Positions 11,346 to 39,521 of a DNA stretch of 64,000 nucleotides are shown here, one piece after another. Source of the DNA: an uncultured Verrucomicrobiota bacterium. GTDB lineage: Bacteria; Verrucomicrobiota; Verrucomicrobiia; Opitutales; Opitutaceae. The notes beneath the pieces were generated by a model. It saw only the letters and a list, made by a program, of their open reading frames with translations, was not told the DNA's origin and ran no database searches. The stretch's first letter is position 1. Every line of letters begins with the position of its first letter. The translations under genes were made by a program, and so were the position numbers. The stretch lies in assembly GCA_903898675.1 (NCBI GenBank), contig CAIUGM010000040.1, forward strand, positions 62,001-126,000, written 5' to 3'.

Positions 11346-12551
11346 TTAGAAGCTCAGGGTGGTCTTCACCGCAAAAAGAGTTGAACTCTCCTTCGGCGAA
11401 GGATTCGTCGTGCGCACCGTATCAAACACCTGGTAGGTGCCCTCGATCCGATGGGCCTCGATCTTGAAGAGCACGTGCTCGGTCAGATCGTACCGCAGGC
11501 TCGCCGCCAGATCGTGCTGATAACTGTGGTAGCCATTTGAAGTGTAACGATCCTTCAAGTCACCATAGTAGGCGCCGACTTCAAACTTGTCGTTCAGACG
11601 ACGGGAGGCTGAGACGTACCAAGCTTCCGTGCCGTACTTGCCCTTACTCGCGGGGGCAATCGGGATTTGGAAGTCATAGTCGCCACCGGTAGTCTGGTAC
11701 TCGGCCGCAAACACCCAGCTCTTCCATTGGTATTCGGCGGAGGCCGTATTGTAGGACAAACGGGGAAAATTAAAGTGCAGGTTGACGACCGGATACTGCG
11801 CAAAGGGACCATCCGACGCCAGATTCGTAAAGAACGAGTAGGAATAAACGAAACGCAGGCCGCTGACGGGGGTGTTCCACGTGAGCTGGCCACCGGTGAC
11901 GGACTTGATGTTGATGCTCGCGACGCCCGGAGCCGCATACAGGCCGCCGCTGTCGTTGTAGAATTCCGAGACACCTTTCTGGGGGCTAACGGGGATTTTG
12001 CCGTAGAAGAATTTATAGTCGATCGAACTTTTCGCGACGTTCCAAGACCCATAAATCATGGCCCCATCGAACGAGGCCGAGAAATCGCGGAGAACCGGAC
12101 TGTAAACGGCATTCGGCAGGAACACATAGGGACGGACCACATCAAGATCGAGTGCCTCGCCGTAGAGGCCCTTGGGGTATTTGACGCGGCCGAGCCGGAC
12201 GCCAAACAGTGGGTTGAAGTTATAGTCCAGCTGGGCCCAGTCGAGAATCACCTTGTCTTCACCCAGCGCGCCAAGGCGCTGCGCGAAGGCCTGGGCGCCA
12301 ATCCGCGCGTGGGAACCGAGTGTTGTGGAGACGTTGACCGCCATCTCGCGAAAATCAAAGGTGCCACCCTTGTCCTGGGCCGGATAATTGTTGTCGGAGT
12401 TGTAGAGCCAGCCTTGGCTGAAGAACCCGCCAATCTGGACATTACTGTCCCCGATCGGAACTGCGCCGCGGGCCAGACCGGCGAGCGCGGCTGATAGTAA
12501 AAAGGCGGAGACAGCGCGGCCCCGGCCGAGTGAAGAGCTGATTTTATTCAT
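11346..12551 (-). CDS. Outer-membrane porin-like beta-barrel
   Basis: A 401-aa protein with a signal peptide (cleavage after LAGLARGA, about residue 29). Alternating aromatic/polar strands run throughout, and the C-terminus ends VKTTLSF, a terminal phenylalanine typical of BamA-assembled barrels. Strand pairs such as GVRLGRVKYPKGLYGE resemble phosphate/anion-type porins found beside PstS-like proteins, but specificity cannot be read from sequence. GC content is noticeably lower than in the neighbours, as expected for an aromatic/Asn-rich barrel. It is the first gene of the porin, binding protein, chemoreceptor operon. Confidence 0.8.
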   Translation of the reverse strand: MNKISSSLGRGRAVSAFLLSAALAGLARGAVPIGDSNVQIGGFFSQGWLYNSDNNYPAQDKGGTFDFREMAVNVSTTLGSHARIGAQAFAQRLGALGEDKVILDWAQLDYNFNPLFGVRLGRVKYPKGLYGEALDLDVVRPYVFLPNAVYSPVLRDFSASFDGAMIYGSWNVAKSSIDYKFFYGKIPVSPQKGVSEFYNDSGGLYAAPGVASINIKSVTGGQLTWNTPVSGLRFVYSYSFFTNLASDGPFAQYPVVNLHFNFPRLSYNTASAEYQWKSWVFAAEYQTTGGDYDFQIPIAPASKGKYGTEAWYVSASRRLNDKFEVGAYYGDLKDRYTSNGYHSYQHDLAASLRYDLTEHVLFKIEAHRIEGTYQVFDTVRTTNPSPKESSTLFAVKTTLSF

Positions 12552-12605
12552 ACTCGCCTACTATCGGCAAGCAGGTGTTCTCCCTTAGCAGATTCTCGCC
12601 ATAGC

Positions 12606-12621
12606 AGGCTGCGCGCAGCCT
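12606..12621. promoter_or_regulatory. Perfect 16-bp palindrome upstream of the porin gene
   Basis: AGGCTGCG followed directly by CGCAGCCT, 55 bp upstream of the porin start. It could be an operator or a 5'-UTR hairpin; no regulator gene is adjacent. Confidence 0.35.
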
Positions 12622-12683
12622 TTGTTCATTTAAGCCTAAAGAAGCGGCGGGGCCGTCCGTAGGAAAAGGGTCGTGTCCCGTGG

Positions 12684-12708
12684 AAAAAACGCCGGGGGCG
12701 GTCCCGGG
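12684..12708 (-). terminator. Rho-independent terminator after the ABC permease operon
   Basis: On the minus strand, CCGGG, a 6-nt loop and CCCGG are followed by CG and six T residues. It lies 18 bp beyond the stop of the last permease gene, the expected position for ending the adaptor-ATPase-permease operon. Confidence 0.6.
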
Positions 12709-12725
12709 TTGCACCCTGCCGAGTC

Positions 12726-13970
<1,245 letters not shown>

Positions 13971-28530: not shown

Positions 28531-29184
28531 TCAGTGGCCGATCTTCAGTAATTCAGCGGCGGTCCAGGGCGCGGTGCGCGCCCCGAGCTCGGCCCGGATG
28601 CGGGAGACCGTCTCGGCCTTCACCTCGGGCGCCTTGTTGCCCCATTCCTGGCGGACGTAGGTCAGTGCGTTGGCAATCTGGTCATCCTTCAGCGCGGCCC
28701 CCAGCGGGGCCATGACGTTGTTGAATTCCTTGCCCTCAACCGTGATCGGCCCGTTGAGGCCGAGCAGGACGATGCGGATGATCCGCTCCTCGTCACCCTG
28801 GGCCCATTCGGAGCCGGCCAGCGGCGGGTAAACCCCCGGGACGCCCAAACCGGTCGCCTGGTGGCAGGTGGCGCAGATGTTGGAGAAAACCTTCTTGCCG
28901 AGCACGGCCGGCGGCACGGCGGTCGCAACCACGGCGCCGGGCTTCTCGCGCTTCGCATGTTCGTTGACCACGAGGGGATCGAAGCGGATCGAATAGTGCG
29001 CGAGGTAAATGGAGCCGAAGAACACAGCCGTGCACATCAGGCCGAGGATGCCCAGCGGCAGGAAGGAATAGCCGTTGGCCTTGTCCGGCTTTTGCTTCTG
29101 CAGCTGCGCATGGACCTGCTGGATGCTGTCATCGCTGGCGCCGCCTTGCTCGAGGTGGAAGTCTTTGTCGGAATTAGCGCTCAT
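28531..29184 (-). CDS. Membrane-anchored monoheme cytochrome c (CcoP-like)
   Basis: A 217-aa protein: a hydrophilic N-terminus, one membrane helix (about 45-70, FLPLGILGLMCTAVFFGSIYLA), and a periplasmic cytochrome c domain with a single CATCH site (heme attachment), GLGVPGVYPPLAG and a Met ligand in NVMAPLG. True cbb3 CcoP has two hemes, so this is a shorter relative or a class I cytochrome c recruited to the operon. ATG 29184 is one base beyond the stop of the CcoO-like gene, implying coupling. It is the last gene of the ActABCDEF operon and is followed by a strong terminator. It probably accepts electrons from the complex on the periplasmic side. Confidence 0.82.
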   Translation of the reverse strand: MSANSDKDFHLEQGGASDDSIQQVHAQLQKQKPDKANGYSFLPLGILGLMCTAVFFGSIYLAHYSIRFDPLVVNEHAKREKPGAVVATAVPPAVLGKKVFSNICATCHQATGLGVPGVYPPLAGSEWAQGDEERIIRIVLLGLNGPITVEGKEFNNVMAPLGAALKDDQIANALTYVRQEWGNKAPEVKAETVSRIRAELGARTAPWTAAELLKIGH

Positions 29185-29185
29185 C

Positions 29186-29854
29186 TTAGTGGGCTCCCTC
29201 CTTGGCGGGTGCGGCCGCAGCATTCAAGTTGCGCTCGGTCGGATAGTCGAAGGGATCCTTCAAGCTCATGAGGTAGGCCACCAGGGCGCGGGCGCGCAGC
29301 GTGGGCACGACCTCGTAACCGGCGCCGGGTGCATACTTGCCCGGCAGGCTGATCGCCTTGTCCGAGGGCTGGCGACCGGCGAGTGGATGAACATCAAAGA
29401 GGAACGTATAGGCCGGCATGTTCGTGCCGGGGGCGACGGAATGCGGGGCGTAGAGCAGCTTGTAGAAATATTCCGCGTCGGCGTAGGGATGCAGCTCCAA
29501 CGAGCCGGTGTTGCGCAGGTCGGGACCCAGGCGGCTTTGGCCGATAAAAACCGTGTTGTCGCGGATGTAGTCGCGGGCGTAGCTGCCCCGCAGACCCCAT
29601 TTGCGCTCGATATCCGAGCCGAAGCCCTCGTGGCGGACCTGCTGAGTGTGGCAGGAGACGCAGCCGAGATCCTGGTAAACCAGGCGGCCCTGGTCCGCGA
29701 CACCCGACAAAGGCTGCGGGTAAAGGACGTCGTCAGTCGGATCCTTGTACTGGCTGAGACTGCCCAGCTGCTGGTGGGCCGTCAGCAGGAGACCGGCCCA
29801 CGAAAGGGCCAGGATCACGAAGGCACCGAGAAAGAGCGCGAGACCGTTTTTCAT
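29186..29854 (-). CDS. CcoO-like membrane-anchored cytochrome c
   Basis: A 222-aa protein resembling subunit II of cbb3 oxidases. It has an N-terminal membrane helix (residues 5-27), the heme site GCVSCHTQQVRHEGFG (about 64-79), the conserved IGQSRLGPDLRNTG stretch and the Met ligand in TNMPAYTFL, which mirrors the CcoO motif MPAYPWL. ATG 29854 overlaps the stop of the CcoN-like gene by 4 bp. Unlike its presumed partner, this subunit keeps all residues needed for heme c. It may carry electrons from the alternative complex III to another cytochrome or to an oxidase encoded elsewhere. Confidence 0.85.
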   Translation of the reverse strand: MKNGLALFLGAFVILALSWAGLLLTAHQQLGSLSQYKDPTDDVLYPQPLSGVADQGRLVYQDLGCVSCHTQQVRHEGFGSDIERKWGLRGSYARDYIRDNTVFIGQSRLGPDLRNTGSLELHPYADAEYFYKLLYAPHSVAPGTNMPAYTFLFDVHPLAGRQPSDKAISLPGKYAPGAGYEVVPTLRARALVAYLMSLKDPFDYPTERNLNAAAAPAKEGAH

Positions 29855-31317
29855 GCGTGTCCCTCCGTGGCGGCCTTCGCCGGATTCGGCAGGCTCAGGT
29901 CCGGGGGCTGGTGGAAGCTCGCCAGGGGCGTGCCCCGCGAATTGAGCGGGCACGCGATCCAGACAAAGTTGATCAGGAAGGCCAGGTGGCCGATCAGCAG
30001 GACAATGAGGCCGATCGAGCGGAACGTGAACCAGAAGGTCAGCACCTTGGTGATGTCGCCAAAGGGCACGGTGGCATCATTCAGCAGGTGACCCTGCTGC
30101 CAGCCGGCCGCGGCCAGACCGGCGGTCAGGAGCACCACGCCGAGCGCGGTGGTGAAGAAGTGCGTCTTGACCAGAATGGTCGAGCGCCACTCCTTGCCCG
30201 TCAGGCGCGGCAAGATGAAATAGGCGGCACCGAACATCGCCGTGGAGAAGCAGGCGTAGAAGATCAGCCAGTCGCGCAGGTCGGTCATCAGCGTGAACTG
30301 CACCACCTGGGCAAACCCGCGCATCGAGAGGGCGAGGTTGAAGGCCGAGGCCAGCACGAAGCCGAGGATGCTGACGAAGATGAAGCGCAACGTGATGCTG
30401 CTTTGCAGGGCACTGTAGCGGCCTGAGAGCGTCCCGAACAAATTCAGGGCAATGACGACCACCGGGACCACGAGCAGGAAGTTGGCGACGGCCCCGAGGG
30501 TGGAAATCCAGACCGGCACCGGCGCCCCGATCAGGCGGCTGCCACCGGCAAAGGCGGTCGTACCCACGAGCCACCAGAAGGCCAGGGCCGCGAGGTAGTA
30601 GTTCGCGATGGGCTTGCCGAGGATCTTGGGCAGAAAATAATAGGCGGCGGCCAGGGCGACCGGAATGAACCACAGGCCGTAGAGACCGTGGACGTACCAG
30701 GCGTTGACAACCGGCTGCAGCACGCCGCGCACCGGGGCCTTGAGGAGCATGATCTGGGCGATGGCGTAGAGCCAAGGGAACCAGAAGGCCGCACCGAAGA
30801 GATACCACTGGGAGGCGTACACGTTCTCCGTGTTGCGGATGCTGAAGGTGGTGACGGCCCAAACACCGATCATCGCGTAGCCCGCGAGCAGGATCAGGGT
30901 CACAAACCGGGGCATCTCCAGCAGCTCAAAGGAGGTGGAGAAGCGGCCGAGGATACCGAGCAAGCCCAGGGTGACACCGATATTCCAGAATTTGGCCGCC
31001 ACGAAAAGCCAGCCGCCGTGGCGCAGGGTCGTCGCGGACAAGCGGGCCATCAGCCAGAGGCCGAACGCGAAGGCCGCATTCATGCCCCAGCCGTAGATCA
31101 GGGCGTTCTGGGCGGCGGGCGCGACGCGGCCGTAGGTGGTCCAGGCGCAGCCGGCGAGAAACGAGGGGGTGTGCAGCTGGATCGAGGCGATCAGCTGCAG
31201 GGCGCCGCCCGCGATGAGCCAGAGAATGGCCGAGCCGAAGAACACGAGCACCGGCCACTTGGCCGAGGCGTCGATCTCCATCTGCTCCGTGCGGGCGTTG
31301 TTATCGGTGGAATTCAT
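29851..31317 (-). CDS. CcoN homologue lacking heme/copper ligands
   Basis: A 488-aa, roughly 12-helix membrane protein clearly related to cbb3 oxidase subunit I: WTTYGR..P..NA (about 59-72), WY.H..G (207-214), YYFLPK and the FGTLSG and PRLTGKE segments align by eye with CcoN. The cofactor residues do not align. The low-spin heme His of PLHTNA is Ala69 (PAAQNA). The copper pair of GPHHLHY is Ser260-Arg261 (AGGSRLI). The heme pair of GHVHAGALGW is Arg348 and Trp350 (LRDWLIF). Only His210 survives. ATG 31317 is used; a TTG lies two codons upstream. Automatic annotation would probably call it cytochrome c oxidase subunit I, but as read it cannot bind heme b, heme b3 or CuB in the known way. A structural scaffold for the downstream cytochromes is an inference. 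Confidence 0.85.
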   Translation of the reverse strand: MNSTDNNARTEQMEIDASAKWPVLVFFGSAILWLIAGGALQLIASIQLHTPSFLAGCAWTTYGRVAPAAQNALIYGWGMNAAFAFGLWLMARLSATTLRHGGWLFVAAKFWNIGVTLGLLGILGRFSTSFELLEMPRFVTLILLAGYAMIGVWAVTTFSIRNTENVYASQWYLFGAAFWFPWLYAIAQIMLLKAPVRGVLQPVVNAWYVHGLYGLWFIPVALAAAYYFLPKILGKPIANYYLAALAFWWLVGTTAFAGGSRLIGAPVPVWISTLGAVANFLLVVPVVVIALNLFGTLSGRYSALQSSITLRFIFVSILGFVLASAFNLALSMRGFAQVVQFTLMTDLRDWLIFYACFSTAMFGAAYFILPRLTGKEWRSTILVKTHFFTTALGVVLLTAGLAAAGWQQGHLLNDATVPFGDITKVLTFWFTFRSIGLIVLLIGHLAFLINFVWIACPLNSRGTPLASFHQPPDLSLPNPAKAATEGHA

Positions 31318-31326
31318 CAGCAAGGG

Positions 31327-31632
31327 TTACTTCTTCGCCTGCTCTTTGACCGTGAGCTCGATGGCGCGATCGATGGGCAAGCGGACGATGCCGGCCTTCC
31401 GGTCCACCCAGCCGTAGCTGGTGGACTCGTCCTGCTCCTTGGTCTTGTGCTCGGCCAGGAGCACCTTGCGGTCGGCGGGAGTCTTGACGCCCTCGATCTT
31501 GTCCACCGTGTAGGCATGCGGGGTGTAGATCTTGGTCGCCAGCCAGCCAAAGGCGGCGAAGCAGAGCAGGACAATGACCGCCGTGAACACGGGAGTACGA
31601 TGCGGGAAGGAGAAGTTGGAGGAATCGCTCAT
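31327..31632 (-). CDS. Small single-helix membrane protein in the act operon
   Basis: A 101-aa protein with one membrane helix (about 15-35, VFTAVIVLLCFAAFGWLATKIY) and a soluble C-terminal half containing YGWVDRKAGIVRLPIDRAIEL. Similar W-V-D...I-P-I-D-R-A-M patterns occur, from memory, in small proteins next to cytochrome c and oxidase genes in several phyla; I cannot name the family with certainty. It starts inside the stop codon of actF (4-bp overlap) and ends 9 bp before the CcoN homologue's start. It is therefore firmly part of the operon and probably an accessory subunit. Confidence 0.7.
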   Translation of the reverse strand: MSDSSNFSFPHRTPVFTAVIVLLCFAAFGWLATKIYTPHAYTVDKIEGVKTPADRKVLLAEHKTKEQDESTSYGWVDRKAGIVRLPIDRAIELTVKEQAKK

Positions 31633-32885
31633 GGCGCGGTGGCTTCGTGGTGCGTGAGGGACTCGACGATGCGCGGGTCGCGGATGGGAATCAGCTTGGC
31701 CGTGGGGAAACTCCGCAGGTAGGCCCAGACGCAGATCCCGCCGACGCCCACCACCGAGGTCAGCACCCAGAGCAGGTTGATGGAAAGGAACGGCAGCGGC
31801 TGGTTCTCCGCGTCCTTCAGGGCCGGGAGGATGTTGTAGCAGAGATCGATCAAAATGATGGTCGCGATCCAGATGCTGATGAACAGCGCCGGGCCCCGTG
31901 TCGACTTGCGGCGGTACGAAAGGAGGAAGAGGAACGGGAAGAAGAAATGCCCGAAGAGGATCAGCATGCCGACGTACACCCAGTCGCCGTGCTCGCGGAT
32001 GTTGTACCAGAAGGTTTCCTCGGGAACGTTGGCGTTCCAGATCAGGAAGTACTGCGAGAAGGTGACGTAGGCCCAGAACACCACGAACGCATAGGCCAGC
32101 GCCATGAGGCAGTGGAACTGGTTCGTGTTATAGATGCCCTTGTAGTCACCCCGGGCGTAGAGCCAGCAGGTGATCATCACGCCGAAGGCCATGGCGGCGC
32201 GCATGCAGTTCGCGAAGAACCAGACGCCGTACATCGTGGAGAACCAGTGGTACTCGAGGCTCTTCATCCAGTAGATCGCCGCAAAGCTGAGCGCCAGGGC
32301 GGTGAGCGGGATACCGAAGGCCGCCGTCTTGCGGTTCATGAAGGTCCACTTCACTTCACCGTCGGAGTCCTGCGCGAAGGAGGCCTTGCGCAGACGGGAG
32401 GAAAGCCAGACCCAGACGATGAAGAAGCCAACCGTCATGCCGGTGAACATCCGCACATTCAGGAAGCTCGCCTTCTTCTGGTAAAGGATGTCGGTCCCGA
32501 CGGTGTGACCGCCGTGGATTTCATGGGACAAGTCCATCCAGGGCCAGACGAGGCCGGGTTTCACCCAGGCCGAGATGAGAAGCGGCAGGAAAAGCACGGC
32601 GAGCCAGAGGAAGGCCGAGGTGCCGTGTTCAAACTGGCGGCGGATGACCGTGGACCAGCCGGCGTCGACGATGTGGTGGATCATCACGAGCAGCAGCATG
32701 CCGATCGAAACGGCGGTCCAGTAGGATATGCCGACCAGATACGAAAGCGCCACGCCCTGATGGTTGTTCGTCAGGAGGAAACCGAGGGCGGTGAGCACCA
32801 GGCCGGCGATGCCGGCGATGAGAAACTTGCCGGCCAGGGCCGCGGTGGACCCGGGGGCGGTCGAGGAGGAAGCGGGCGCGCTCAT
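31629..32885 (-). CDS. actF: Alternative complex III subunit ActF
   Basis: A 418-aa polytopic protein with about ten membrane helices, the second large membrane subunit of alternative complex III (quinol:electron-acceptor oxidoreductase). Its position after actE and its helix pattern (LVMIHHIVDAGWSTVIRRQFEH, FGHFFFPFLFLLSYRRK) match ActF, a distant relative of ActC. The N-terminus is Ala/Ser-rich and cytoplasmic. The last bases overlap the 101-aa gene. It belongs to the quinone-side membrane part; it has no cofactor of its own. Confidence 0.88.
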   Translation of the reverse strand: MSAPASSSTAPGSTAALAGKFLIAGIAGLVLTALGFLLTNNHQGVALSYLVGISYWTAVSIGMLLLVMIHHIVDAGWSTVIRRQFEHGTSAFLWLAVLFLPLLISAWVKPGLVWPWMDLSHEIHGGHTVGTDILYQKKASFLNVRMFTGMTVGFFIVWVWLSSRLRKASFAQDSDGEVKWTFMNRKTAAFGIPLTALALSFAAIYWMKSLEYHWFSTMYGVWFFANCMRAAMAFGVMITCWLYARGDYKGIYNTNQFHCLMALAYAFVVFWAYVTFSQYFLIWNANVPEETFWYNIREHGDWVYVGMLILFGHFFFPFLFLLSYRRKSTRGPALFISIWIATIILIDLCYNILPALKDAENQPLPFLSINLLWVLTSVVGVGGICVWAYLRSFPTAKLIPIRDPRIVESLTHHEATAP

Positions 32886-32886
32886 G

Positions 32887-33567
32887 TTACTTCAGCCCTC
32901 CCCGTTCCGCGAGCGGCACATCGTCGATGCTGGCGTTGTGGGCGCGCTGCAAAGCGCGCACGTAGGCCACGACCGCCCAGCGGTCGTCAGGGGAAAGTTT
33001 GTCCGCGTAGGAAAACATCGTGTTCTTGCCGTGCGTGATGGTGTTGAAGATCTCACCCTCGGCCATCTGGCGGATCCGGTCGTCGTGGTACGAAGGCGTC
33101 GCGAGCATGCCGTAGGACTTGGTGATCCCGTTGCCGTCGCCCAAGGCGCCGTGGCAGGGATAGCAGTAGATCATGTAGCGGTTGCGGCCGCGGCGGACCA
33201 GCGTCTCGGTGACCTCAACCGGAAAACCCCGGGCAAACGTGCCGTCGGCCTTCTTGCCGGCATAGCGGAAATCATCGCCGCGGAGGTAGGCCGGGTCGGC
33301 GAAGGCACCGGTGGTGGAGTCGAAGCCGTGGCCCGGCTCGAGCTCGACGCCGCGACCGCGGCCGTAAGGCACGGTGCCGGCCGGAATCGGCCGGTCGGCG
33401 CGGCCGTCCGCGAAGAACTTGGACTCGGCCTGCGGCTTGTACTTGGCCTGGTGGTCCATGTCCGGGAAGACCTCGATCGGGGGACGCGACGACTTCATGC
33501 CGCGGAAGCCCATGACGGACACCAGGAGCACGACGAGGAAGGCGAGCGTGTAGTAGGCGTAACGCAT
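32887..33567 (-). CDS. actE: Alternative complex III cytochrome c subunit ActE
   Basis: A 226-aa monoheme cytochrome c with an N-terminal hydrophobic anchor (MRYAYYTLAFLVVLLVSVMGF) and one heme site, YCYPCHGALGDG (about 141-152), followed by a C-terminal helix (WAVVAYVRALQRAHN) and a Met-containing loop. In characterised complexes ActE is a periplasmic monoheme subunit that helps pass electrons out of the pentaheme ActA. It lies 1 bp from actD and actF on either side. Confidence 0.9.
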   Translation of the reverse strand: MRYAYYTLAFLVVLLVSVMGFRGMKSSRPPIEVFPDMDHQAKYKPQAESKFFADGRADRPIPAGTVPYGRGRGVELEPGHGFDSTTGAFADPAYLRGDDFRYAGKKADGTFARGFPVEVTETLVRRGRNRYMIYCYPCHGALGDGNGITKSYGMLATPSYHDDRIRQMAEGEIFNTITHGKNTMFSYADKLSPDDRWAVVAYVRALQRAHNASIDDVPLAERGGLK

Positions 33568-33568
33568 C

Positions 33569-34099
33569 TTATTCGTCGATTTCGGCGATATCCTTGCCGC
33601 CAGCCTGCTCGAGCAGGGCGCGGGTCTGGGCCGGGTTGAATTTCGGGTCGTTGGCCTCGATCACAATGTAGAAGCGGTCATCCATGGCGCGGACGAACTG
33701 CGGGGCCTTGAGCACCGGGTGGTAGTGCATCGGCAGCTTGTTCAGGAGGAACATGCCCCCGATCGTCGCGAAGGCCGTGAAGAGAATCGTCAGCTCGTAG
33801 GAGATCGGGAAGGCGAACATCGGGCTGAAGTACGGCTTGCCACCCACGACCAGCGGGTACTCGTAGGCGTTGGCCCACCAGATGAGGGACATGCCGGTGC
33901 AGAAACCCGTGATGCCGCCGGCGAGCGAGAAACGCGGCACCTTGGAGCGGCGGACGCCCATGGCGAAGTCGAGCCCGTGGATCGGGAAGGGCGTGAGGGC
34001 ATCCCACTGCGAATACCCGGCATCCCGCACCTGCTCGCAGGCGTGATAGAGGGCCGGGGTGGTGTCGAAGGCGGCGACGATTCCGTAGTTCTTTTTCAT
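33569..34099 (-). CDS. actD: Alternative complex III subunit ActD (DUF3341)
   Basis: A 176-aa membrane protein of the DUF3341 family: N-terminal YGIVAAFDTTPALYHACEQVRDAGY, a cytoplasmic segment with FPIHGLD, and two membrane helices (about 57-80 and 100-123) before a soluble tail. ActD is a small structural subunit placed beside ActC. Gene order between actC and actE is canonical. Confidence 0.9.
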   Translation of the reverse strand: MKKNYGIVAAFDTTPALYHACEQVRDAGYSQWDALTPFPIHGLDFAMGVRRSKVPRFSLAGGITGFCTGMSLIWWANAYEYPLVVGGKPYFSPMFAFPISYELTILFTAFATIGGMFLLNKLPMHYHPVLKAPQFVRAMDDRFYIVIEANDPKFNPAQTRALLEQAGGKDIAEIDE

Positions 34100-34111: not shown

Positions 34112-35545
34112 TTAGTGGTGGTCGGCGCCGTGCGGATCGGCGGCGGGGATGACCATCTTGATCTCCGACATCGGCATGATGGGGAGGAAACGGATGAAGA
34201 GCAGGAAGAGGAACGAGAACACGCCGAACGTGCCGAAGAACGTGAAGATCTCGACGATGGACGGCGAATAGTAGCCCCAGCTCGACGGCAGGAAGTCGCG
34301 GGCGAGCGAGGTGACGATGATCACGAAGCGCTCGAACCACATGCCGACGTTGACGAAGATGCAGAGGATCCAGACGAGGGTCGTGTTCTCGCGGACCGAC
34401 TTGAACCAGAAGAACTGCGGGGTGATCACATTGCAGGTGATCATGATCCAGTAGGCCCAGGCGTAGTGGCCGAACGCGCGGTTGATGAACGCGAAGCCCT
34501 CGTAGGGATTCGCGCCATACCACGCGATGAAGAACTCCATCGAGTACGCGTAGCCCACCATCGTGCCGGTCGCGAGGGTGATCTTGCACATGCAATCGAT
34601 GTGGTACTGCGTGATGACATCCTCGAGCCGGTAGATGGCGCGGAGCGGCAGCATGAGGGTGAGCACCATGCCGAAACCGGAGAAGATGGCGCCCGCCACG
34701 AAGTACGGCGGGAAGATCGTCGTGTGCCAGCCCGGGATCAGCGAGACGGCGAAGTCGAACGACACGATGGTGTGCACGGAGAGCACGAGCGGCGTCGCGA
34801 TGCCGGCCAAAATGAGGTAAGCCATCTCATAGTTGCTCCACTGGCGGTTGGAACCGCGCCAGCCCATGGCGAAGAAGCCGTAGATGCGCGCCTTGACGAT
34901 GTTGCCGGTCGACGTGAAACGGTCGCGCAGCGTGCCGAGGTCGGGGATGAGGCCGATGTACCAGAAGAGCACGGAAACCGTCCCGTACGTCGACACGGCG
35001 AAGACGTCCCACTCCAGCGGGGAGCGGAAATTCTGCCAGATACCGTTCGAGTTGGGGAACGGGAACAGGTAGCCAGGCATGACGGCGAACCAGATGCGGC
35101 CGACGTGGAAGACCGGGAAGATGGCGGCGCAGACGACGGCAAAAATCGTCATGGCCTCGGCCGGGCGGTTGATCGACGTGCGCCACTTCTGGCGCAGGAG
35201 GCACAGGATGGCGGAGATGAGCGTGCCGGCGTGGCCGATACCGATCCAGAAGACGAAGTTGACGATGTCCCACGCCCAGTTGACCGGGTTGGCGTGACCC
35301 CACACACCGACGCCGGTGGAGACGAGGTAGATCAGGCCGGAGACCGTGAACGAAGCCACGAAAGCGGCGGCGCCAAAGCACCACCACCACCAAGTCGGGG
35401 TCTTGCCCTCGACGATGCCGCAGATCTTCTCGGTGATCCAATGGAAGTCGCGGTGGTTCTCCACCAGCTCGCGGCGCGGGATCGAAGCCGGCCGGACTTC
35501 GGCCAGAATGGCCGGGGCGGCCTGGTCAGTAGAGTGCGAGGACAT
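34112..35545 (-). CDS. actC: Alternative complex III quinol-oxidising subunit ActC (NrfD/PsrC-like)
   Basis: A 477-aa NrfD/PsrC-type protein with about ten membrane helices. Conserved features include [18 protein letters not shown] (quinone-pocket helix with His) and RSSINRPAE-like [12 protein letters not shown]. ActC oxidises menaquinol or another quinol and hands electrons to the Fe-S subunit ActB. Its stop and start are spaced tightly; the start shares one base with the actB stop (TGATG-type junction). Confidence 0.92.
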
Positions 35546-38500
35546 CAGGCGTGCTCTCCGGGTTCGGCGGCTTCATGGCCCGCGGCGTGCGCCGGGTGGT
35601 TCTTCTTGTTGTACTCGACCCGGCTGAGCGGGAGGGCGGCGTAATCGGGCATGAGCGGATTCGGGTTGCGCAGCTTGCCGAGGTAGGTGGTGCGCGGGCG
35701 AATGTTCAAATAACCGAGGACGGCGTAGTTGCGGTCCTGCGCCTTGGCCTTGGAGACGGCGCTGTCGGCCCGCTTGATGTTGCCGAAGACGATGGCCTCG
35801 ACCGGGCAGACCTGCTGGCAGGCCGTCTTGATCGTGCCGTCGGGCACCTCGACATCGCCGCTGGCGCCGGCCTTGCGGATCTGGGCGATCTTGCCCTGCT
35901 GCACGCGCTGGACGCAGTAGGTGCACTTTTCCATGACACCGCGCATGCGCACGGTGACATCGGGATTCTTCACCAGCTTCACCAGCTCGGGCATCTCGCT
36001 CTGGTGGCCGAGCGGTCCCATGTAGAGGGCATCCGTGGCGCGCTTGTTGAAGTCGAAGAAATTAAACCGGCGGACCTTGTACGGGCAGTTGTTCGCACAA
36101 TACCGCGTGCCGATGCAGCGGTTGTAGGCCATGACGTTGATGCCTTCCTCGTCGTGCACGGTGGCATTGACGGGGCACACGGTCTCGCACGGGGCGAGCT
36201 CGCAGTGCTGGCAGGTCATGGGCTGCATCGAAACCTGGGGATCCTCGGGGAGGATCTTGTTGCCCTCGGCGCCGAAGGCCTCCGCGTCGGCCAGGCCGTC
36301 GGAGTAGTAGCGGTCGAGGCGGATCCACTGCATCTCACGGCCGCGGAGGACCTGGTCCTTGCCGACGATCGGGATGTTGTTCTCCGCCTGGCAGGCGATG
36401 ATGCAGGCGTTGCAGCCGATGCAGGTGTTGAGGTCGATCGACATGCCCCACTGGTGGATGCCGTCGAACTTCGGGGTCTCGTAGAGGGAATTGCCGCGCG
36501 GCGGCGCCGAGGCGAGTTCAGCCAGCGGCCGGCCCTTGTCGGCCCCGAGCACGGCGGGCGTGTGCGACTCCATGCCGATCGTGTCGACAAACTTCGGCGT
36601 CTCGTTGAATTCAGTGAGGTTGGCCTCGCGGATGATGTCGCGGCCTTCCATCGACCAGTGCTCCTGGGTGTTCGCCAGCTTGAAGCGGTCGTCGGTCTTG
36701 CGCAGGGTGGCGCCGGTGGCGAAACCCATCGCGCCGGACGTGCGGACGGCGTAGGCGTCGAAGCCCGTGCCCGTGCCGATGTGCCCGGATTTGGTGCGGC
36801 CGTAGCCGAGCGGGAGGACGATCGTGTAGTTCGCCAGGCCCGGCTGGATGTGCATCGGCCCGCGGACCGTGCGGCCGTTCACGGTCACTTCACCGATAAA
36901 GGCGTTCTCCTTGCCCTGGACAAACTCGGCTTCCTCCCTGCGGGCGACCTGGGGCGTCGAAATCAAACCCAGGATTTTCGTGCTCACCGGCGCGATGCCG
37001 AGTTCCTTGCCCAGCGCCGGGCTGACCAGAATGGCATTGTCCCACGAAATCTTCGTCATGGGGTCGGGGCACTCCTGCAGCCAGCCGTTGTTGGCAAAGC
37101 GCCCGTCGTCCATCTTGTGATCGGTGATGAACCGCACTTCCAGATTGCTGGCGGACAGCGCCGCGGCGGCCGGAGCCGGGGCAAACACCGCGGCCGGCAG
37201 CTCCGCGGCAAAATCGACGGAAACAACCGGGTAGGCCGAACCCTCGAGCAGGCCGTCGTGCAGGAACTTCTCGAAGGCCTTCTGGCCATCGCCGCCGGCC
37301 AATTTGCCGATGGTCGCAAAAACCTGGGTGTAGGCGTCGGCACTCTCCTCCCCGGCCACGCGGGCCAGGAGTTCGACCTCGGTGAGGCCGTTGAAGAGCG
37401 GCATGATCATCGGCTGAACCGGGACGATCGTGCCATCAACCGTGCGGGCATCGCCCCACGATTCCAAATAGTGCGTGGCGCCGATGTGCGTGCCGGCCAG
37501 CGCGGAAGTTTCGTCGTTGTAGTAGCCGAAGCGGATGACCTCGGCCACCGAGCCCAGCAGCTTGCCGAATTCGAGGTCCGCCGGCGCGTTGTACACCGGG
37601 TTGCCGCCGAGCAAAATCAGGGTCTTGACCGCGCCACCCTTGATGGCGGTGGCGAGGGCTGAAATCGTGGACGCCCCGGAGGGCTCAACCGCGACAAAGT
37701 CGACCGTCTGCCCGATGTTGCCGAGCTTCGCGTTGATCGCGTAGGCCAGGACATGGACCGGCATGGGCTGATCCGGACCAGCGACCACGAGGCTGGTCCC
37801 GCGATGTGCCAGGAGATCCTTGGCGCACTCCTCGATCCATTGGTCCTTCTTCGGGAAATCAAGACCCTGCGCGAGGGCCGCATAGGCGTCGGTGGCGAGC
37901 ACCTTGTTCGCCAGGGCGGCCGTGAGCGCCAGGATGTGGCTGCTGGCCAGGCGCAGGCGGTGGTCGGCCATGCTGCCGGTGAGCGAAAAACCGCTTTCCG
38001 CCACATAGAGGCGGTTCATCGGATCCTTCGGGTTCACCACCCGGCGGCCCTTGGCGAATTCACGGGCGTAATAGAGCGAACCGGCCTCGGCGTGGAAGAA
38101 ATCGGCGTCGAGACTGACGATGCGCTCGGCCTTGGCGAAGCGGTAGAGCGGCTTCACGTTTTTGCCGAAAGCCGCCTGGGCGGCCGCGACCGGCGGCTCG
38201 TCCTGCACGGGCTCGTATTCGGCCCAGACCGCCCGCGGGAAAACCTTCTTCAGCTTGGCGACCAGGCGCGCCCGCGTCGGCGAGGCGGATTCGTCCGCGA
38301 GAAACGCCAGCCCCTCGCCGCTGCCGGCATAGGTCTTGTTGAGGCCGGCCAGAATGTCATTCACCTGGGCATTGGTCAGGGCGTTGCCGCCCTTGCTGTG
38401 ACCGGTGGCGCGCTCGGGATCGTAAAGATCGAGCACCGACGCCTGGGCCAGCAGCGTGCTGGCGCCGCCATGCGGGAGATACGTGGGATTGCCCTCGATC

Positions 38501-38868
38501 TTGGTCGGACGACCCTGATGGGTCTCGGCCAGGAGCGGAAGCGCCGACTTGCGCAGCGGCATCGCCGTGGCGAAATAAAGTGGCAGGCCCGGCACCGTGT
38601 ACTCGACGGACTTGCCGTAGGGCAGAATGTTCGATTCCGGGCGGCGGCAGCCGGCCAGCCCGAGTCCGCCCAGGGCGAACGAAGCGGCCATGAGCCGCAT
38701 GAACTGCCGGCGATCGACGCCCTCCATGGAGGAGGCACCCTCGGGGAATTCCCGGGCGATGTGCTCGCGGAAACCCGGGGTCTCGGCCAGCTCGTCAAGG
38801 CTGCGCCAGTACTTCGGTCCGGTCAGCTCGCGTTGCCCGGGGGCGGAATGATCAAATTTGCGTTTCAT
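35545..38868 (-). CDS. actB: Alternative complex III Fe-S/molybdopterin-fold subunit ActB
   Basis: An 1107-aa fusion of a molybdopterin-oxidoreductase-like domain and a ferredoxin-like domain. A twin-arginine motif (DRRQFM, Arg53-Arg54) and a lipobox-like LAGC (Cys74) mark export and probable lipid anchoring. The long middle domain (about 100-740) has the Mo-enzyme fold but, as in known ActB, no visible Mo-ligating residue. The C-terminal domain carries ferredoxin cysteine clusters [35 protein letters not shown] and CTYC...CQQVC, enough for four Fe-S clusters. It wires quinol oxidation in ActC to the hemes of ActA/ActE. One base overlaps actA. Confidence 0.92.
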
Positions 38869-39521
38869 CAGCGATGGCAGCCGGAGCAGCTTTGCGGCGG
38901 TTTGACCTTCCAGTCATGGACGAACTTCTGGGCGTCCGCGAGGCGGCCCTGCTCGGCGAGCGTTTTGGAATCGAGATTGAAGACATCCTGCGGGTCGCGG
39001 ATGAACGTGGCGGGATTGCGGTGGCAATTCAGGCAGAAGCTCATGCTGTGCGACTTGGCGTGATAGACGGCCGTCATCTCGTTGACCTTGCCGTGGCACT
39101 CGACGCAGCTGACGCCGCGGTTCACGTGAACCGAGTGGTTGAAATACACGTAGTCGGGGGCCTGGTGGATCTTCACCCACGGCACCGGATCGCCGGTCTT
39201 GTAGCTCTCGCGGACCACCTCGAGCAGCGGGCTCGTGGTCTTGATCACACTATGGCAGTTCATGCACGTCTGGGCGGCCGGGACGCTGGACGTGGCGGAT
39301 TTCTCGACGGAGGCGTGACAGTAGCGGCAGTCGATCCCGAGCTGACCGGCATGGAGGCTGTGGTCAAACGGCACCGGCTGCACCGGCTGGTAGCCGACGC
39401 GCAGGTAGGCCGGGGTGGCGTAGTACGTGATGCCCGCCGCCGCCACGCCACCCAGCACAAACAGGAAAATGACGATCTGCAGCGGCAGAGCGTTGGCTGA
39501 TTTCGGGAAAATCTTCGACAT
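38868..39521 (-). CDS. actA: Alternative complex III pentaheme cytochrome ActA
   Basis: A 217-aa multiheme cytochrome c. It has an N-terminal membrane anchor (about 12-33, LQIVIFLFVLGGVAAAGITYY) and five CxxCH sites: CRYCH, CMNCH, CVECH, CLNCH and CSGCH, the last near the C-terminus. Five hemes and the single anchor match ActA of alternative complex III. First subunit gene of the operon; a possible short leader gene lies 42 bp upstream. Confidence 0.93.
   Translation of the reverse strand: MSKIFPKSANALPLQIVIFLFVLGGVAAAGITYYATPAYLRVGYQPVQPVPFDHSLHAGQLGIDCRYCHASVEKSATSSVPAAQTCMNCHSVIKTTSPLLEVVRESYKTGDPVPWVKIHQAPDYVYFNHSVHVNRGVSCVECHGKVNEMTAVYHAKSHSMSFCLNCHRNPATFIRDPQDVFNLDSKTLAEQGRLADAQKFVHDWKVKPPQSCSGCHR

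Follow-up and report, generated by a model that had tools for sequence, protein, structure and literature searches.

The window analyzed here is a 64,000-nucleotide stretch from an uncultured bacterium of the Opitutaceae, in the phylum Verrucomicrobiota (contig CAIUGM010000040.1, positions 62,001 to 126,000). It encodes a homologue of CcoN, subunit I of cbb3-type oxidases, inside a gene cluster for alternative complex III (ACIII), a menaquinol oxidase made of cytochromes, an iron-sulfur and molybdoenzyme-like protein, and NrfD-like membrane subunits. The CcoN homologue has lost five of the six histidines that should hold its hemes and copper, and it is almost certainly not an oxygen reductase. 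Our favored explanation, which we consider fairly probable, is a heme-copper pseudo-oxidase: the ligand-less CcoN would be kept as a cofactor-free membrane anchor, and the hemes of its partner cytochromes, CcoO and CcoP, would bridge ACIII to an A-type oxidase. The case for a non-catalytic protein is strong; the bridge we infer, with physical association drawn from gene linkage. What would be new is an ACIII-oxidase assembly whose cbb3 subunit has become a pseudo-oxidase.

An earlier note on this DNA had likened the protein to CcoN at the level of the fold and had read five of the six cofactor histidines as replaced (A69, S260, R261, R348, and W350, with His210 left). Both points are borne out. 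The protein matches PF00115 at 153 bits (cut-off 34.8), and its residues 28-452 align with the CcoN of 3mk7 (phmmer, E 1.7e-25). Aligned to the ligand-complete CcoN of the same genome (L002), it has A71, H212, S262, R263, R350, and W352 at the six ligand positions and T256 at the position of the active-site tyrosine; residues are counted here from a TTG start, which adds two to the ATG-based numbers of the note. Ligand-complete orthologues from the equivalent gene slot anchor the alignment. An alignment error or a wrong frame is ruled out, as three alignments and the intact orthologues agree on the replaced positions; the phmmer alignment puts the last two histidines a few columns off, still on non-histidine residues. 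The gene itself is intact and in frame, as the note had it, with the reading frame open from either start (29851-31323 from TTG, 29851-31317 from ATG). Against the ccoN equivalog model TIGR00780 it scores 113.6 bits, well under the cut-off of 583. Both intact ACIII-linked CcoN proteins tested also miss that cut-off (235 and 254 bits); the model does not separate the two states.

The AlphaFold2 model of the protein has a mean predicted local distance difference test score (pLDDT) of 91 and a predicted template modeling score (pTM) of 0.91. Its best-ranked Foldseek matches are cbb3 subunit I chains. In the structural comparison that the note had proposed, the model matches CcoN chains along its length: against 3mk7_D, VIA-align gives Z 50.3 and a root-mean-square deviation of 1.7 Å, with 443 residues aligned at 24% identity. 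Chains of nitric oxide reductase (NOR) are more distant (Z 43.3). NorB has ligands for heme and FeB, mostly histidines at the equivalent positions; we rejected this identity because five of the six histidine positions are replaced and NOR chains rank below cbb3 chains. We conclude that the predicted CcoN fold is intact and the cofactor ligands are gone, and we expect the protein to lack heme. The one remaining ligand histidine is an asparagine in all three genomes of the nearest genus (g14) and so is not strictly preserved as a ligand.

The loss is widespread. Of 387 genomes searched from the phylum, 116 gave a match; 93 of the 116 belong to the window's class (the window included) and 23 lie outside it. 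We scored all 93 class genomes, each at one ACIII-linked locus. All six histidines and the tyrosine are present in 29 of these proteins. The other 64 have three histidines or fewer (none in 17, one in 40, two in 5, and three in 2), and counts of four or five do not occur among the 93. Upstream of CcoN lie ActE and ActF genes at 92 loci, all but L185, where the contig cuts the locus short; ActB and ActC are both present at 85. This survey of the ligand positions, which the note had called for, finds the loss in open reading frames. It also goes beyond the note in three respects: the ACIII setting, the 29 ligand-complete orthologues in the equivalent slot, and a loss that is not a single event on the ACIII tree. 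Nine of the 23 matches outside the class were fetched (L084-L092), some as short stretches; no ACIII gene was present in these stretches, and all ligands covered there are intact.

We compared the intact and loss proteins column by column, using 28 of the 29 intact proteins (truncated L185 left out) and all 64 loss proteins. Among the 145 columns conserved in at least 95% of the intact set, the least kept in the loss set are the CuB ligand His257 (0 of 64), Tyr251 (0), and the heme b3 ligand His345 (1, tied with two other columns). The other ligand columns are kept in 3 (His347), 10 (His207), 18 (His258), and 24 (His60) loss proteins. Random sets of seven columns do as badly as the ligand and tyrosine columns in 2 of 100,000 draws. 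Several Gly, Ser, Thr, and Met columns are altered as well; at window position 439, Gly most often gives way to Trp (34%), and at position 323 Thr gives way to Leu (55%).

The residues found at the ligand positions differ by loss clade and are locally consistent (SESHSFV in genus g41, mostly HSQK.. in family f10). Such settled sets are what an enzyme that had built a new metal or heme site from other residues might leave behind. We regard this as very improbable: no replacement set is common to different clades, and no new conserved histidine appears among the eight proteins of the window's clade, made up of genera g1 and g14. H388 and H446 are kept in all eight proteins of that clade and H51 and H102 in seven; histidine is also the commonest residue there in intact proteins. 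A proton or ion channel that preserves the oxidase's proton path but not its redox site would fit the oxidase fold of the predicted model. We give this idea slightly less credence still, since none of the 64 loss proteins has the active-site tyrosine and, for several Ser, Thr, and His columns of the intact set, fewer than a quarter of them retain the residue.

In cbb3 oxidase, CcoO and CcoP are membrane-anchored cytochromes that dock on CcoN. The note had described the window's CcoN gene as coupled by overlap to a CcoO-like gene with a heme site of its own, and we find the same: the CcoN stop and CcoO start overlap as ATGA, and the CXXCH motif and distal Met are present. A CcoO-like frame with CXXCH occurs at all 93 loci and a CcoP-like frame with CXXCH at 91, in each case including 64 of 64 loss loci; the CcoP-like frame was undetected at two intact loci (L061 and L213). 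Scored by alignment, the CcoP Met is kept at 27 of 27 intact and 63 of 64 loss loci. With heme motifs kept at the loss loci, the cytochromes were therefore retained when the oxidase site was not. The note had also raised the idea of a new electron-transfer subunit. This hardly suits CcoN, with one histidine of six left in the window protein, but it does suit the CcoO/CcoP pair that CcoN presumably carries. A second CcoP-like cytochrome gene is found between ActF and CcoN at 11 of 15 loci in family f10 and 2 of 3 in family f3 (among them L072, L073, L075-L077, L057, and L058).

We propose an origin in a cbb3-like oxidase linked to ACIII, whose CcoN gave up the residues that bind heme b, heme b3, and CuB. 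The ligand-less protein would sit beside ActF and hold the CcoO- and CcoP-like cytochromes, keeping two c-type hemes near ActE and lengthening the electron exit of ACIII. In the heme order that this arrangement suggests, electrons would pass from menaquinol through ActB/ActA/ActE to CcoO and CcoP, and from there to a separate A-type (caa3 or aa3) oxidase. Oxygen chemistry would be left to that oxidase.

A-type oxidases, called here as PF00115 proteins of at least 400 bits, occur in 64 of 64 loss genomes (63 in one piece; in G381 split at contig ends), compared to 25 of 29 intact genomes (Fisher p 0.008, kinship uncorrected). The four intact genomes without one (G001, G146, G128, and G228) are also the four without COX2 among the 65 of the 93 genomes searched for it. 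In G001 and G146 the sole PF00115 protein is the ligand-complete, ACIII-linked CcoN, and neither COX2 nor a bd oxidase turned up there (the bd search covered 34 of the 93). On these grounds, the intact CcoN is probably the terminal oxidase in these two. Both genomes are small, at 1.3-1.7 Mb (L054, with CcoN at 11953-13431, and L217). At 26 of the 64 loss loci, the cluster continues after CcoP into coxA, with the fetched stretch reaching 3 to 6 kb past CcoN. Three genomes (G187, G190, and G199; loci L069, L192, and L193) have ActE-ActF-CcoN-CcoO-CcoP-coxA together, with ActA-D outside the fetched stretch and ActC on another contig. These split loci connect the loss module with ActF at one end and with the A-type oxidase at the other.

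Several observations weigh against a bridge of this kind. A-type oxidases are common in intact genomes as well, and coxBA follows the cluster at one intact locus too (L079); loss loci are thus not alone in lying next to cox genes. No coxA was seen within the fetched stretches of the window's family. The window's genome encodes a caa3 coxA and a cbb3 CcoN-CcoO fusion elsewhere, and its caa3 genes lie about 82 kb from the cluster on the same contig. The electron destination that we propose therefore comes from other families. By the same alignment scoring, the distal Met of CcoO is kept at 29 of 29 intact loci, compared to 40 of 64 loss loci (15 with Cys). The ratio of nonsynonymous to synonymous substitution rates (dN/dS; Nei-Gojobori, leaving out pairs with saturated synonymous sites) is also higher for loss CcoN, at 0.12-0.53 in seven genus-level groups, compared to 0.01-0.12 in four intact groups. 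ActC has lost nothing and yet is somewhat raised too (0.06-0.23 in loss groups, 0.03-0.07 in intact groups), and part of the CcoN difference is therefore not about CcoN.

Raised ratios, highest in genus g14 (0.53), together with an A-type oxidase in every loss genome, would fit slow decay. The cbb3 module would then be redundant beside the A-type oxidase and CcoN a passenger, at most an aid to CcoO/CcoP assembly. We consider this unlikely. All seven loss groups have dN/dS ratios under 1, and the CcoN gene is under constraint there. Frames are open at 64 of 64 loss loci across several families, the shortest being 459 amino acids; long open frames in all 93 genomes (L185 cut by its contig) rule out a pseudogene. 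The initial search flagged stops in four genomes (G348, G190, G199, and G333), and the CcoN frames scored there run to 474-528 amino acids. Gene order is kept, 41 of the 145 conserved columns persist in 85% or more of the loss proteins, and the predicted model of the window protein, with its pLDDT of 91, also counts against decay. The note's preference for a conserved, non-catalytic scaffold over decay gains from these results: the 64 cluster-linked genes share the loss with open frames, the seven groups tested show constraint, and the partner genes keep CXXCH. Reuse as a structural bridge, rather than decay, is probably what the loss loci represent.

Whether the ligands went once or several times depends on the tree. 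The ACIII tree combines ActB, ActC, and ActD for the 85 loci with both ActB and ActC, and comes from a quick search with Shimodaira-Hasegawa-like approximate likelihood ratio (SH-aLRT) support only. On it, the ligand state changes at least 10 times, with 8 changes forced by well-supported branches; a smaller, superseded ACIII tree of 46 loci gave 9 changes, 6 of them forced. The approximately unbiased (AU) test rejects a single clade of all loss rows on ActB/C/D (p-AU 1.4e-60) and also within family f1 (p-AU 1.7e-6). For CcoN itself, on a tree of 73 of the 93 proteins (19 near-copies and truncated L185 left out, no outgroup), three changes suffice and the test does not reject a single loss clade (p-AU 0.078). 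The CcoN result would be expected if one ancient ligand-less CcoN lineage had spread by replacement among ACIII clusters, a scenario that concerns origin rather than function. We doubt it, given the rejections on ActB/C/D and the placement of one protein, that of G172 (L055): a CcoN tree of 77 of 91 rows (13 same-genome repeats and incomplete L090 left out) groups it, strongly supported, with six intact proteins from its family. The tree tool warns of long branches meeting in the CcoN trees and for one row of the ActB/C/D tree. A comparison of the genes flanking loss loci with those of intact relatives gave mainly antisense frames. We read these trees as repeated loss of the ligands, and modules may also have been replaced between lineages.

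In the window, open reading frame calls and profile searches give a ten-gene run on the minus strand, in the order ActA-ActB-ActC-ActD-ActE-ActF-small protein-CcoN-CcoO-CcoP. The ACIII set from ActA to ActF is complete, with ActD above its Pfam cut-off and ActF assigned by position. Members of the window's family, and of some other families, have a homologue of the small protein in the same gap between ActF and CcoN. For CcoP, whose open reading frame extends to 29223, we chose the Met of MSANSDK as the start.

Genes of the ACIII and cbb3-like cluster in the window, with the evidence for each assignment
Feature	Position	Strand	Evidence
ActA, multiheme cytochrome c subunit	38868..39521	-	PF14522 50 bits; QrcA 88 bits
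ActB, fused molybdoenzyme-like and iron-sulfur subunit	35545..38868	-	Fer4 domains; QrcC 168 bits (TIGR04519, above cut-off)
ActC, NrfD-like membrane subunit	34112..35545	-	PF03916 81 bits
ActD	33569..34099	-	PF11821 ActD 216 bits
ActE, monoheme cytochrome c subunit	32887..33567	-	PF13442 47 bits
ActF	31629..32885	-	position only, as in relatives; no Pfam or NCBIfam match
Small protein, one hydrophobic stretch	31327..31632	-	between ActF and CcoN; no Pfam match
CcoN homologue, ligand-less	29851..31317	-	PF00115; 488 amino acids from ATG, 490 from TTG at 31323
CcoO-like monoheme cytochrome c	29186..29854	-	FixO PF02433 54 bits; CXXCH and distal Met
CcoP-like monoheme cytochrome c	28531..29184	-	PF00034 44 bits, PF13442 33 bits; CXXCH and Met

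The arrangement can also be followed in named genomes. An ActC search there yielded 582 loci, of which we kept the best 80. A CcoN of the ACIII-linked kind is present at 29 of these 80, every one of them in a record assigned to Verrucomicrobiota. Four of these CcoN are intact (L107, L125, L129, and L136), and the remainder are loss forms, three of them fragments. With Krumholzibacteriia as the exception, the fetched stretches of ACIII loci from other phyla among the best 80 contain either A-type cox genes or none. The Krumholzibacteriia locus (L132, from 1144) has a ligand-complete CcoNO fusion before the ACIII genes and coxB/coxA after them. In a draft Chthoniobacter flavus record (L114, 14613-16092), a ligand-poor CcoN occupies two overlapping frames; downstream of it come CcoO, three cytochrome genes, and coxA. 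At L113 ActC and CcoN are in pieces; neither locus is among the 93. Within the window's family, three loci (L044, L047, and L053) have second CcoN-like genes with all ligands, frames of 550-634 amino acids, and a CcoO-like neighbor. No ACIII gene was present in the fetched stretches around these second genes.

The loss very likely extends to organisms whose respiration has been described. PF02461, the family of a particulate methane monooxygenase (pMMO) subunit, is present in all five family f11 genomes tested, compared to none of four others. These five pmoA-bearing genomes (2.2-2.5 Mb; loci L065, L066, L067, L093, and L201) are very likely verrucomicrobial methanotrophs. Another locus, L098, carries a possibly automatic Methylacidiphilum sp. 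Phi label and was not used as a methanotroph, its CcoN being just 29% identical to the nearest reference. Four of the five ACIII-linked CcoN proteins have the ligand set SESHSFV and one has ADAHAQT, leaving one ligand histidine each. Score and length divide the other PF00115 proteins of these genomes into A-type, B-type, and NOR-like; histidine motifs were checked in nine of them and NCBIfam in three. Sorted in this way, the PF00115 proteins of the five genomes include no further C-type oxidase. A 467-amino-acid PF00115 protein of the methanotrophs is probably NOR, judged by a motif; NCBIfam gave no match for it. Taken as they stand, the sequences argue against the methanotroph ACIII-linked CcoN being an oxidase.

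The published view differs. In the available part of PMC8498564, nearly all isolated verrucomicrobial methanotrophs are credited with a cbb3-type oxidase adjoining ACIII. The portion of PMC6688271 at hand connects the high oxygen affinity of Methylacidiphilum with the cbb3 type next to ACIII, and a section of PMC10205796 counts the cbb3 type among the terminal oxidases of verrucomicrobial methanotrophs. We see even chances for the broader proposition that several independent cofactor-free pseudo-oxidases became permanent ACIII subunits with a cytochrome bridge to an A-type oxidase, and that the methanotroph "cbb3" is one of them and reduces no oxygen.

Comparison with known systems sets out what the pseudo-oxidase shares with each. 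Like the CcoN of the cbb3 oxidase 3mk7, a C-type heme-copper oxidase, the window protein has the fold over nearly its full length and CcoO- and CcoP-like gene partners; unlike it, it has five of the six histidines and the tyrosine replaced and is linked to ACIII. A parallel lies within ACIII itself. ActB is a molybdoenzyme relative without molybdenum, and so likewise a former catalytic subunit turned structural in the same complex, although from a different enzyme family. An ACIII-aa3 supercomplex was reportedly described from Flavobacterium johnsoniae by Sun in 2018. It couples ACIII directly to an oxidase, as we propose here, according to the accessible parts of PMC8361435 and PMC8498564, but there the contact is made through oxidase subunit III (PMC8361435, in the same parts), whereas here a cbb3-derived module would stand between. 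No CcoN was seen in the fetched stretches of Flavobacteriaceae ACIII loci among the best 80 of 582. The ACIII-cbb3 gene arrangement itself is already known (PMC8498564, which cites Refojo 2010): in verrucomicrobial methanotrophs and Opitutaceae, ACIII genes lie directly beside cbb3-type genes, as excerpts of PMC8498564 and PMC6688271 have it. In those excerpts the module is treated as a working cbb3 oxidase, whereas CcoN in each of the five pmoA-bearing genomes tested keeps one histidine of the six. Judged by titles and the opening lines of abstracts, our literature search, whose coverage left out most subscription journals, returned no paper on ligand loss in CcoN.

Genes of this sort pass for cbb3 oxidase genes, and published physiology has been drawn from them. 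If the ligands are gone, the high oxygen affinity must come from another oxidase, and ccoN would be an unsafe marker of microaerobic respiration in this phylum unless the six histidines are checked. With intact and ligand-less forms in one gene slot, the phylum offers a natural series on the non-catalytic role of an oxidase subunit in a supercomplex.

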